In this document: positions 54,656 to 58,732 of the stretch, piece after piece | Layout: the number at the start of each line of letters is the position of its first letter | Numbering within the stretch: the first letter of the stretch is position 1 | Assembly: GCA_019695095.1 (NCBI GenBank) | Contig: JAIBAQ010000003.1 | Coordinates: 1 to 64,000, forward strand | Direction: 5' to 3' | Length of the DNA stretch: 64,000 nt | DNA from: Candidatus Hydrogenedentota bacterium | GTDB lineage: Bacteria; Hydrogenedentota; Hydrogenedentia; Hydrogenedentales; SLHB01 | The notes under the pieces: model-generated | The model's database searches: none | The model's input: only the letters and a program-made list of their open reading frames with translations | Told to the model about the DNA's origin: nothing | Made by a program: the position numbers and the translations under genes

Positions 54656-56704
54656 ATGCGAACTATGGTGACGATCATTCTTGCACTCGGATTCCTTGCG
54701 GTTTTAAGTGAGGCGGAGACTTTCTATCTGTCTCCTTCCGGAAACGATGCCAATCCAGGTACGGAAGCGGCGCCATTTGCGACGCTGGAAAAGGCGCGTG
54801 ACGCCGCTCGTACTGCGAAATCATCGGCTAAGGATGGTGTATCCGTGGTCATTGCTGGCGGGGTATACACACTCGACAAGCCGGTAGTGTTTACACCGGA
54901 AGACTCGGGAACAGCGGAACGTCCAGTGAAGTATGTGGCGAAAGAGGGCGAGCAACCGGTGTTTCGCGGCGGGCGAACAATTACCGGATGGAAACGCGCC
55001 GAAGGCGATCTGTGGACCGTCGAGATCCCGGAAGTGAAAGCGGGTACATGGTATTTCCGCCAGTTGTTTGTCAACGGCGAGCGGCGTCCGCGAACCAAGC
55101 TGCCGCAAGACGGTTACTACACCATTGCCGGCGGAGGGACTCCTCCGAAGCGGTCATTCAAGTTCAATGCGGGAGAGATCAATCCCGCATGGAAGAATCT
55201 GAACGATGTGGAAGTGATTGTGCTTCAGTTCTGGACAGAGGCGCGGTTGCGGATTGCGTCCATCGACACCGCAACCAATATGGTTGTATTCACTGGCGAC
55301 GCATTTCGCCCGCTCGATTGGAACAAGGGATGGTATGTCGAGAATGTTCGCGAGGCATTAAACACGCCGGGGCAATGGTATCTCGATCGGGCCACGGGCG
55401 TGCTCACGTATTGGGCCAAGCCCGGTGAAGATTTGGAGAAAGTTGAAGTGGTGGCGCCTGTCTCGCGCTATTGGATGCGCTTCGAAGGAGACGCCGCCAA
55501 CGGCGCGTTTGTCGACCATCTCACGTTCGAGGGACTCCACTTTGAGTACTCGGACTGGAGGCTTGATGACACTCTGGGCTACAGCTATCCCCAAGCGGCC
55601 ATCGACGAGCATCCGAATGAGCCCTTGTTTCAAGGATGGCCTGAAGGCGATTCGATTCCGCAGTCGCAAATCGAAGTGCCTGCCGGAATTTTCGCGAGTG
55701 GCGCGCGAAACACGGCATTCATGCAATGCGAATTTGCGCACACGGGCGCGTGGGCCATGGATTGGCAGACGGGGTGCAAGGATATCGCCGTTTCAAGAAG
55801 TCACTTCTACGATCTGGGCGCAGGCGGGATTCGAGTGGGAAGCCCCAAGATCGCGCCCTCTGACGCCTTGGAGACCTCACGGGTCACAATCGAAGACTGT
55901 CGCATCCACGACGGCGTGAGGGTATACCAAGGTGCACCCGCGATTTGGATTGGACAAAGCAGCGACAACACGGTCGCCCACAACGAAATTTACGGTCCGT
56001 TTGAGTGGGCCATCTCGGTGGGTTGGAATTGGGGATACACGCCGCCGAACCGGGCGCGCGATAACAAGGTTGAGTTTAACCACGTGCACGATCTGGGCGA
56101 CAGTCCGCTGGGTACGCACGGGGCCATCTATTCGCTGGGTGTTCAACCGGGCACTGTCATTCGCAACAATCACATTCACGACATACGCGGTGGCGGGAGC
56201 GGCATTGTGCTCGACAACGCGAGCGTAGGCGTATTGGTTGAAGACAACGTCGTGCATCATTGCTCGTATTCGTCGTTCATGAGCAATTTCAACGACCTCG
56301 GGAACATGGTGTTCAACAATGTCTTTGCGATGGCGACGAAAGATCAGTTGCATCGTATTGGAGATGTTCCTGCGGACAGGACCAAGATCCACCAGACCGG
56401 CGTGTTCTTTCACAACATCTTCTATTGGGATACAGGCACGCTGTTCGAGAGCAAGGATTGGGTCGACTACAACATCATCATGGAGAACAATCTCTACTTC
56501 GATGCGACTGGCGCACCTGTCACGTTTTGTTCGTTTTCATTTGACGAGTGGAAGGCCAAAGGACTCGACCAGCACTCGCTGGTCGCGGATCCTTTGTTTG
56601 TCAATCCGGCTGGCGGCGATTTTTCGCTCAAGCCTGAATCGCCTGCCTTCCAATTGGGGCACAAGGCCATCGATATGAGGAATGTCGGTCCCAGGTTCCG
56701 GTAA
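54656..56704 (+). CDS. Exported right-handed parallel beta-helix protein, probable polysaccharide-active enzyme
   Basis: The 682-residue product has a signal peptide (MRTMVTIILALGFLAVLSEA). Its N-terminal module, FYLSPSGNDANPGTEAAPF and ATLEKARDAAR, is typical of large secreted beta-helix enzymes. Repeated coil segments follow from about residue 270, with short beta-strands and Asn/His turns (for example FEGLHFEYS, IEDCRIHDG, HNEIYGPF, VEFNHVHDL, IRNNHIHDI, VEDNVVHHC, FNNVFAMA). The end, SPAFQLGHKAIDMRNVGPRFR, is also common in the group. This architecture includes fucosidase- or xylanase-like GH141 members and pectate-lyase-like proteins. I cannot name the substrate or catalytic acids. Together with the sialidase it suggests glycan foraging. 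Confidence 0.82.
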   Translation: MRTMVTIILALGFLAVLSEAETFYLSPSGNDANPGTEAAPFATLEKARDAARTAKSSAKDGVSVVIAGGVYTLDKPVVFTPEDSGTAERPVKYVAKEGEQPVFRGGRTITGWKRAEGDLWTVEIPEVKAGTWYFRQLFVNGERRPRTKLPQDGYYTIAGGGTPPKRSFKFNAGEINPAWKNLNDVEVIVLQFWTEARLRIASIDTATNMVVFTGDAFRPLDWNKGWYVENVREALNTPGQWYLDRATGVLTYWAKPGEDLEKVEVVAPVSRYWMRFEGDAANGAFVDHLTFEGLHFEYSDWRLDDTLGYSYPQAAIDEHPNEPLFQGWPEGDSIPQSQIEVPAGIFASGARNTAFMQCEFAHTGAWAMDWQTGCKDIAVSRSHFYDLGAGGIRVGSPKIAPSDALETSRVTIEDCRIHDGVRVYQGAPAIWIGQSSDNTVAHNEIYGPFEWAISVGWNWGYTPPNRARDNKVEFNHVHDLGDSPLGTHGAIYSLGVQPGTVIRNNHIHDIRGGGSGIVLDNASVGVLVEDNVVHHCSYSSFMSNFNDLGNMVFNNVFAMATKDQLHRIGDVPADRTKIHQTGVFFHNIFYWDTGTLFESKDWVDYNIIMENNLYFDATGAPVTFCSFSFDEWKAKGLDQHSLVADPLFVNPAGGDFSLKPESPAFQLGHKAIDMRNVGPRFR

Positions 56705-56732: not shown

Positions 56733-57713
56733 CTACGCGGTCACTGTCTTCGCGGGAAGAAACGAATCCGCGAAGATGTCTTTCATGGCTGCCCCGAGCA
56801 GGAAGGTCTTCTTCTGCATCATCTTTACAAAATCAGGGTGGCCGCATAGGAAGACGCGAGAACCGCGCAGTGTAGAAAGCGTGGACGTGACATGTGCGTC
56901 GAGAGCGCCAACGTGTGTCTGCGCGTCGGCGGGACCTTCAAGCACGCACGGATAATAATGCAGATTTGAATGTGTGTGACTGAGCGCGCGCAATTCCTCG
57001 ACGAGATACAAGCCTTCCTGGCGGATGCTCCCGTGGAAGAGGTGAATGTCTCCCGTGTGCCCATGGCGAAGTGCGTCTCTTGCGATCCCGTAAAGCGGCG
57101 CGAGGCCCGTTCCCGTTCCTGCAAGCACCAGGGTTTGTCCGAAGTTGCCCACCGTGTAGAAGCAGTTGCCGTGCGGCCCGAGAAGGTCCACGAAGTCTCC
57201 CTCTTTGGCGCTATCGTGTACCCATCCGCTGACAATCCCGCCGGGCATACGCGCAATGTGCATATGGAGATGGGGATCTTCGGTGGGAACGCTCGCCAGC
57301 GAGTAGCTTCTGACTGTGCCACAGGTCAAGGCGATATTCGCGAACTGCCCCGGCCGATATTCAAACGCGGCATCGCACTCCAGAGTCAGCTCTGCGACTG
57401 TAGCATTCAGTGAACGTACTCTCGCCACGCGCGCGCGGTGACGGAGTCCGGCGTCGTTTGGGCGGACAACTTCCAGGCTGCCATCGGGTTTACAGCAGCA
57501 TGCGAGAAAGTAGCCCTGCTGACGGAGCGTGTCGCGCAGACCTGCCTGAGCCGTGGCGGGTGGTGTTCCCTCCACGGCCCTCAATAGACATGACTGACAG
57601 ACACCGCTCCGGCAGGAGCTGGGTATGGTGACTCCCGCTACCTCCAGCGCTTCCAGCACCGTGTTCCCGGGTGGAACCTCGTAGGTGGTGCCTTCGAAGA
57701 CCAATTCGCTCAT
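56733..57713 (-). CDS. 2Fe-2S ferredoxin / FAD / NAD(P)H oxidoreductase
   Basis: The 326-residue product has three modules. A plant-type 2Fe-2S domain (1-85) has cysteines C34, C39 and C42 in CRSGVCQSC, and the fourth ligand in the ACCC at 71-74. A ferredoxin-reductase FAD domain (about 95-190) carries RSYSLAS (135-141). The NAD(P)H domain begins with LAGTGTGLAPLYGIARD (about 197-213), followed by FHGSIRQEGLYLVEEL and CGHPDFVKMM. This is the phenol-hydroxylase-P5 / CDP-glucoseen-reductase arrangement, passing electrons from NAD(P)H to a partner. It lies 20 bp downstream of a truncated haemoglobin gene on the same strand, so that globin is the likely partner. Together they match the parts of a flavohaemoglobin, with an added iron-sulfur domain. 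Confidence 0.88.
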   Translation of the reverse strand: MSELVFEGTTYEVPPGNTVLEALEVAGVTIPSSCRSGVCQSCLLRAVEGTPPATAQAGLRDTLRQQGYFLACCCKPDGSLEVVRPNDAGLRHRARVARVRSLNATVAELTLECDAAFEYRPGQFANIALTCGTVRSYSLASVPTEDPHLHMHIARMPGGIVSGWVHDSAKEGDFVDLLGPHGNCFYTVGNFGQTLVLAGTGTGLAPLYGIARDALRHGHTGDIHLFHGSIRQEGLYLVEELRALSHTHSNLHYYPCVLEGPADAQTHVGALDAHVTSTLSTLRGSRVFLCGHPDFVKMMQKKTFLLGAAMKDIFADSFLPAKTVTA

Positions 57714-57733
57714 GTAGTCCAGGTGGCGCCGGA

Positions 57734-58099
57734 CTAACGGCTGAGCACGTCGTTGCGTGTGGACTCGGCAATGGCAAGTACTTGCTGGATCAATTCCGCG
57801 GGCGCGGATAGTTCACTAAGCGCCTTCTCAAGATTCTCTTTCACGGCGTCGAAATGCGTGTCATTCAGTCCGCGAGCCACGAGATGAGCGTGCGCCCTGC
57901 GCATGTCTGCGCCGGTGTAGTTGTGCGGTCCGCCAAATGCCATCGTCAAGAACGCCTTTTGTTTGGCCGCCTGACGTTCCATGTCGACGTCATCAAAGAA
58001 GTGACTGATGCGATCGTCTCCGAGTACATGACGGTAGAAGATATCGACCGCCGCCTCGACCGCCGCCTGCCCGCCCAGAGTCTCGTACAGAGTTGCCAT
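57734..58099 (-). CDS. Group I truncated haemoglobin
   Basis: The 121-residue product has a 2-on-2 globin fold. It begins with LYETLGGQAAVEAAVDIFYRHVL, in which Tyr22 fits the distal B10 tyrosine. It continues with DDVDMERQAAKQKAFLTMAFGGP and the proximal F8 histidine H70 in MRRAHAHLVARGL, and HFDAV follows. Group I truncated haemoglobins (GlbN/trHbN) often bind O2 tightly and turn NO into nitrate. GGGAGG sits seven bases before the ATG. A promoter and an NsrR-box-like operator lie just upstream, and the reductase that would re-reduce the haem follows 20 bp later. All of this points to NO detoxification, although no biochemical proof can come from sequence. Confidence 0.9.
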   Translation of the reverse strand: MATLYETLGGQAAVEAAVDIFYRHVLGDDRISHFFDDVDMERQAAKQKAFLTMAFGGPHNYTGADMRRAHAHLVARGLNDTHFDAVKENLEKALSELSAPAELIQQVLAIAESTRNDVLSR

Positions 58100-58127
58100 G
58101 AAACAGCCTCCCGAAGTTGGTTTGCAG

Positions 58128-58154
58128 AAAAGATGTATGTAGTATACATCTTTT
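58128..58154. promoter_or_regulatory. NsrR-box-like operator
   Basis: AAAAGATGTAT (58128-58138) is repeated in perfect inverse as ATACATCTTTT (58144-58154), separated by five bases. It closely follows the 11-bp spaced AAGATGYAT-type half-sites described for NsrR in other bacteria. It lies 29 bp upstream of the truncated-haemoglobin start and 101 bp upstream of the divergent NsrR-like gene, and it contains the -10 hexamer of the globin promoter. Confidence 0.8.
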
Positions 58155-58169
58155 GCGGTGACCGATCAA
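58141..58169 (-). promoter_or_regulatory. Promoter of the truncated-haemoglobin operon
   Basis: On the minus strand TTGATC (58169-58164) and TATACT (58146-58141) are exactly 17 bp apart. The -10 hexamer lies within the inverted repeat, so a bound repressor would block RNA polymerase. The transcript would begin near 58134, about 35 nt before the start codon. Confidence 0.72.
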
Positions 58170-58227
58170 TCTCTATTGAATCATCGGCACTGGAAACATT
58201 GAACCTGCGGCAAGGGGCTCGTCGTGG

Positions 58228-58233
58228 TACAAT
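58228..58233 (+). promoter_or_regulatory. -10 element for the NsrR-like gene
   Basis: TACAAT (58228-58233) is preceded by TGG, giving an extended -10 element (TGG-TACAAT). No -35 has correct spacing. The transcript would begin near 58240, with a leader of about 16 nt that contains GGAAGGA. Confidence 0.4.
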
Positions 58234-58255
58234 TTGCGCGACGGAAGGAATCTCG

Positions 58256-58732
58256 ATGCAATTAACATTGCACACAGACTATGCGTTACGAATGCTCCTC
58301 TACTTGGCATTGCGCGCGAAGGGCGCCACGATTTCGGAGATTGCGGAGCGTTACAACGTTTCGCGCAATCATCTTGTGAAGATAGCCCACGCGCTCGGGA
58401 AGAAGGGCCTGATAGAAACAACTCGCGGCCGCGCGGGAGGGTTACATCTTGCAAAGCCTGCCGCGGAGATCAATATCGGCGCAGTTGTGCGAACGATGGA
58501 GCCCAACTTTGACATTGTGGAGTGCTTTGACAAGAAGCGAAACGAATGTGTGATTTCGTCGGCTTGCGAATTGCGCCGAGCGCTTTACGAGGCACAGCGC
58601 GCTTTCTTAACGACCCTAGATCGTTACACGCTAGCCGATCTCACGGCAAACAGCGCGCAACTGGGAGCTTTGCTTGATAAGAGACCGCGTACGTCTGCCC
58701 GCGGTACAGGCCGTTCTCGCGTGAATCACTAA
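58256..58732 (+). CDS. nsrR: NsrR-like Rrf2 family iron-sulfur regulator
   Basis: The ATG at 58256 follows GGAAGGA; a longer open frame upstream runs through the operator and is not the gene. The 158-residue product is an Rrf2-family winged helix: QLTLHTDYALRMLLYLAL at the start, and the recognition region ISEIAERYNVSRNHLVKIAHALGKKG. RGRAGGLHLAKPAAEINIGAVV follows. The cluster cysteines are C90, C98 and C104 (DIVECFDKKRNECVISSAC). These fit the three-cysteine pattern of NsrR, whose Fe-S cluster is destroyed by NO so that repression ends. It is divergent from the truncated-haemoglobin/reductase operon with a shared operator between. The basic tail after residue 140 is longer than usual. Confidence 0.85.
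   Translation: MQLTLHTDYALRMLLYLALRAKGATISEIAERYNVSRNHLVKIAHALGKKGLIETTRGRAGGLHLAKPAAEINIGAVVRTMEPNFDIVECFDKKRNECVISSACELRRALYEAQRAFLTTLDRYTLADLTANSAQLGALLDKRPRTSARGTGRSRVNH

Follow-up and report, generated by a model that had tools for sequence, protein, structure and literature searches.

The glbN locus of this Candidatus Hydrogenedentota genome very probably constitutes a self-contained NO-detoxification cassette, in which a two-chain, NO-induced NO dioxygenase is encoded together with its own reductase. Gene content, gene order, an NsrR box, conserved cofactor residues and conserved linkage were all observed directly. A two-chain NO dioxygenase, the function proposed in the first-pass annotation of this DNA, is the reading that best accommodates these observations, from which its activity is predicted.

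Organisation of the glbN locus

Three intact open reading frames make up the block within the window, the whole 64,000-nucleotide stretch that was analysed. On the minus strand, glbN (57734–58099) encodes a 121-residue group I truncated haemoglobin and is followed, after a spacer of exactly 20 bp (57714–57733), by the gene for a 326-residue Fer2–FAD–NAD reductase (56733–57713). A 156-bp gap separates glbN from a divergent gene on the plus strand (58256–58732), which encodes an nsrR-type Rrf2 repressor of 158 residues. The first-pass annotation had placed all three reading frames correctly, in coordinates, strand and the 20-bp spacing.

A conserved fourth gene downstream of the block was sought in the relatives, and none was found. 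The neighbouring gene in the window (54656–56704, plus strand) encodes a 682-residue right-handed β-helix protein. It contains a GH141 insertion domain and is probably an enzyme that acts on polysaccharides and has no tie to the globin block. In four relatives, MoeA-like, MOSC-like and MobA-like molybdenum-cofactor genes lie near the globin block (L115 in G050, L121 in G053, L120 in G055 and L124 in G031), as judged from sequence only.

The truncated haemoglobin

GlbN matches the Pfam family Bac_globin (E = 2.1e-19), and its nearest solved structures are Synechocystis GlbN, to which it is 57% identical, and other group I truncated haemoglobins (E = 5e-35), which bears out the original class assignment. 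The group I fold signature is accompanied by the proximal HisF8 (residue 70), TyrB10 (22), PheCD1 (F35) and the distal glutamines GlnE7 (43) and GlnE11 (47), as well as LysE10 (46) and PheE14 (50). Residues Y22, F35, F50 and H70 are invariant among 98 related globin sequences, and Q43 (97/98), K46 (97/98) and Q47 (94/98) are nearly so.

Synechocystis GlbN has a distal HisE10, whereas the Hydrogenedentota protein has lysine at this position. Lysine at E10 is also known in other group I globins, so no conclusion on haem coordination is drawn from it. The C-terminal haem-linking histidine of Synechocystis GlbN is absent, and covalent haem attachment of that kind would not be expected.

Other truncated globins of the relatives occur in different settings. 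In a 914-residue protein of genome G049 (contig C663; L117:351–3092, plus strand), a truncated globin domain is combined with a chemotaxis (MCP) signalling domain and several PAS domains; this domain content predicts a chemoreceptor built on a truncated globin, where globin-coupled sensors usually have the 3/3 type. In genomes G004 and G020, another group I globin, only distantly related (34% identity; L024:1501–2472 and L025:1501–2470), has a different Rrf2 gene (31% identical) behind it and no reductase alongside.

The reductase

The Pfam families Fer2 (E = 2.8e-15), FAD_binding_6 (8.4e-9) and NAD_binding_1 (6.2e-14) all match the second gene product, in agreement with its initial description as a 2Fe-2S/FAD/NAD(P)H reductase. 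Its N-terminal plant-type [2Fe-2S] domain carries Cys34, Cys39, Cys42 and Cys72, which are invariant in 84 orthologues. The motif RSYSLAS is found in the FAD-binding domain, and GTGTGLAP and CG-x-P in the NAD(P)-binding domain.

By model scores, the reductase is nearer to PRK05713, MmoC and BenC than to the reductase domain of Hmp. It shares domain order and cofactor motifs with the BenC, MmoC and PRK05713-type reductases, but it falls under every curated cut-off (the top NCBIfam model, PRK05713, gives 184.6 bits against a cut-off of 338) and its gene partner is a globin. No oxygenase gene was seen in the neighbourhood of the reductase gene.

In genome G042 (contig C95; L116:126–5216, minus strand), a single protein of 1697 residues combines the reductase, by in-frame fusion, with an entire one-module non-ribosomal peptide synthetase (condensation, adenylation, carrier and thioesterase domains); glbN and nsrR are still adjacent. 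The surroundings of nine other relatives contain no such fusion.

The regulator, its NsrR box and the predicted glbN promoter

The divergently encoded protein belongs to the Rrf2 family (Pfam, E = 6.3e-39), and its best PDB match is Streptomyces coelicolor NsrR (5n07, E = 1.8e-20). NsrR is also its top NCBIfam model (138.9 bits; cut-off 182), followed by RirA (130.8 bits). The three-cysteine pattern that had suggested NsrR is present as Cys90, Cys98 and Cys104, which are invariant in 56 orthologues; Asp8 is conserved in 55 of these, the remaining one having a gap. An NsrR orthologue in genome G028 (L113:3694–4200, minus strand; 59% identical) lies on a 5.6-kb contig that carries no globin.

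The NsrR box that the first-pass annotation had given without coordinates is located at 58130–58152. It is 23 bp long (AAGATGTATGTAGTATACATCTT), agrees exactly with the operator AAGATGYAT-N5-ATRCATCTT and sits within a perfect 11-5-11 inverted repeat (58128–58154), 30 bp from the glbN start codon. When the whole 6.77-Mb assembly was scanned with AAGATGYATNNNNNATRCATCTT, allowing at most three mismatches, this was the one site returned, with 0 mismatches; the reversed pattern, used as a control, gave three matches per strand.

A candidate glbN promoter (58141–58169, minus strand) consists of a −35 element TTGATC and a −10 element TATACT separated by a 17-nt spacer, with 9 of 12 consensus matches. 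It is the only promoter-like site in the gap between glbN and the regulator gene and is directed at the globin, although the consensus scan found two such sites in the region against 0.9 expected and is weak evidence on its own. The −10 element falls inside the NsrR box, an overlap that would fit repression by occlusion.

Across related loci, the box was found in 52 of 55 with an adjacent NsrR gene (p ≤ 0.01 against mononucleotide shuffles of the related sequences), in 12 of 29 that have the globin–reductase pair with no NsrR gene nearby, and in 3 of 14 that lack the reductase.

Conservation and linkage

Linkage was assessed in an order-level sample of 60 genomes (the host, G000, and 59 relatives), in which 18 globins with 63% or more identity to the query were counted as orthologous. 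The reductase adjoins 16 of these 18 and NsrR adjoins 17; upstream of the globin with no NsrR neighbour, the contig stops after about 300 bp. Two Hydrogenedentota globins (in G045 and G050) have no neighbouring reductase and count against the pairing. A separate reductase search (E below 1e-50) recovered 16 orthologues, all adjoining glbN, with the next match at E = 9e-18, and none of 11 distant truncated globin paralogues (22–38% identical) has such a reductase alongside.

The arrangement extends well beyond the order. Among the best 80 named loci, which represent Gamma- and Betaproteobacteria, Acidobacteriota, Planctomycetota and Hydrogenedentota and belong mostly to phyla other than that of the host, the reductase lies directly downstream of the globin in 72, and 44 also have a related Rrf2 gene; several further loci are truncated where the contig ends. 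All 84 globin–reductase pairs are encoded on the same strand, 3–279 bp apart. In Acidobacteria, nsrR is the third gene, behind the globin–reductase pair, and the box is still upstream of the globin. Chance co-location of the three genes was rejected on these counts (16/18, 17/18, 16/16 and 72/80). The association in relatives is non-random, contrary to the outcome that the first-pass annotation had named as refuting its proposal; its impression that the combination is less common is contradicted by the same 72 of the best 80 named loci and by a prediction in Legionella from 2005.

In a tree of the reductase, a branch with SH-aLRT 90 (not starred) sets the 16 Hydrogenedentota members apart, with Acidobacteriota next to them. 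The protein distance matrices of globin, reductase and regulator co-vary (Mantel r 0.65, 0.51 and 0.80). This grouping and the correlated distances would fit a long residence of the block in Hydrogenedentota. The glbN–reductase pair is also carried by three Methylocystis plasmids (NZ_CP044330.1, 99706–101023, and two others), one of which is typed as mobilizable.

Genomic context of NO metabolism

No Hmp-type globin (PF00042) was matched in the host genome, a MAG that is 95% complete, and any PF00042 match was found in only 3 of the 60 genomes searched. Two other NO-related loci are present. Host contig C289 (L134:326–4999) encodes a 762-residue NorB-type NO reductase (NorB cytochrome c-like and COX1 domains) together with NnrS, and contig C16 (13056–14906) encodes Hcp. 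Each lies beside its own diverged Rrf2 gene, only about 26–27% identical, and no good NsrR box was found at either, which suggests that each NO-related locus in the host genome may have one regulator. The idea that NsrR governs further loci in the host genome was rejected, since the box occurs once and the other NO loci have no good one. The host genome encodes a further haem-copper oxidase-family protein. With a NorB-type NO reductase route elsewhere in the genome, an aerobic NO route at the glbN locus alongside it is plausible.

Relationship to known systems

Rodionov et al. identified the Legionella pneumophila glbN–lpg2536 operon as the sole NsrR target in 2005 and proposed a role in NO oxidation (PMC1274295). 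Gardner restated this prediction in 2012 and argued for ferredoxin-reductase-like electron donors to truncated globins (PMC3820574). Smagghe et al. observed in 2008 that an Escherichia coli hmp mutant exposed to an NO donor is protected by Synechocystis GlbN, which can thus stand in for Hmp; reduction is limiting for NO scavenging by GlbN-like globins, and the paper asks for their cognate reductases to be identified, a lack named as the main gap for testing NO dioxygenase roles (PMC2323109). As NO dioxygenation is almost universal among globins in vitro, the reaction itself is not diagnostic (PMC2323109). In the available portion of a 2024 Hydrogenedentota paper, nsrR and glbN are listed with no link drawn between them (PMC10866078). 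A search for truncated haemoglobins with Rrf2 or 2Fe-2S partners returned no literature beyond PMC1274295, PMC3820574, PMC2323109 and PMC10866078, and no published biochemistry was found for any glbN–reductase operon of this kind.

As judged from its published description, the Legionella operon likewise places a ferredoxin-reductase gene behind that of a cyanoglobin-type truncated globin, with an NsrR site upstream; it is the only NsrR target in a genome with no hmp and carries the same proposal of NO oxidation. The present locus differs in its host phylum and in having nsrR divergent and adjacent. The Hydrogenedentota genome also has Hcp and NnrS, both of which Legionella is reported to lack, a difference of context and not a property of the operon. 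Given the Legionella prediction and the work of Gardner and Smagghe et al., this kind of system was already known as a prediction; what is new is the host phylum, how widely the operon occurs, the residue conservation and the evidence that the box is the sole site, whereas the operon type itself is neither uncommon nor new.

Flavohaemoglobin Hmp shares with the present system a globin, FAD and NAD(P)H chain, NsrR control and the predicted conversion of NO to nitrate. Hmp is a single chain in which an M-family 3/3 globin is fused to FAD/NAD domains; here, separate open reading frames encode a truncated (2/2) globin of the Bac_globin family and a reductase with an extra 2Fe-2S domain. Descent from a split Hmp was rejected because the globin belongs to another family, and oxygenase-type Fer2–FAD–NAD reductases outscore the Hmp reductase domain as matches to the second protein. 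The term 'split flavohaemoglobin', applied to the locus initially, is therefore misleading as a statement of ancestry, and the system is better described as analogous to Hmp.

Alternative explanations

The regulator could sense iron or Fe–S status in the manner of RirA or IscR, with the operon answering iron supply or oxidative stress instead of NO. The C-X7-C-X5-C cysteine spacing alone cannot tell NsrR from RirA, and RirA scores only 8 bits behind NsrR, with neither model past its cut-off; the ten orthologues of the regulator that were scored likewise stay under the equivalog cut-off, which counts against the NsrR assignment throughout. NsrR is nevertheless the best model in all ten, about 8–32 bits ahead of RirA. 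With an operator that matches the NsrR box exactly, an NO-type globin as the target and neither iron-uptake nor isc/suf genes seen beside the block, an iron sensor is very unlikely.

Two further alternatives concern the enzymes. The pair might perform another redox job, such as anaerobic reduction of NO, nitrite or hydroxylamine, or removal of peroxide, in which the reductase would supply the haem with electrons. Activities of that sort are described in vitro for other truncated globins, with peroxidase activity reported for one truncated haemoglobin, and a NorB-type NO reductase and Hcp are already encoded in the genome, so that the NO response would be layered. Such a job is unlikely, as the TyrB10/GlnE7/GlnE11 distal set of O2-stabilising group I globins is retained, the haem-copper oxidase-family protein is compatible with O2 use, and NsrR control and the missing Hmp fit an aerobic NO dioxygenase. 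It is more doubtful still that the genes are merely co-regulated, with the reductase serving another acceptor and unspecific cellular reductases reducing the globin. The usual partners of Fer2–FAD–NAD reductases are oxygenases, and the two members that have no adjacent reductase would agree with such an arrangement; yet all orthologous reductases in the order adjoin the globin, no oxygenase gene was seen in the neighbourhood, and the pair is intact both on the Methylocystis plasmids and in Acidobacteria despite the move of nsrR to third position.

Proposed mechanism and significance

In the favoured reading as a two-chain NO dioxygenase, NsrR carrying its Fe–S cluster would occupy the one box, which overlies the −10 element, and keep glbN–reductase transcription off. 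NO would damage the cluster, NsrR would leave the DNA and a bicistronic mRNA would be made. The ferrous-oxy truncated globin would then convert NO and O2 into nitrate and be left ferric, while the FAD of the reductase would accept hydride from NAD(P)H. Single electrons would pass to the ferric haem, probably via the 2Fe-2S domain, with oxygenase reductases as the model, and the cycle would repeat. The response to NO, repression by NsrR, electron transfer to the globin and NO dioxygenation are predicted steps.

The arrangement described in Legionella is widespread, occurring in uncultured Hydrogenedentota, methanotrophs, iron oxidisers and Acidobacteria. There is about an even chance that the block represents a mobile, self-regulated two-chain NO dioxygenase and a common bacterial alternative to Hmp, in which the truncated-globin haem receives its electrons from the 2Fe-2S domain instead of straight from the flavin, and which would supply a dedicated reductase for group I globins. 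A three-gene block conserved across phyla with its own operator would name the missing reductase partner of these globins.
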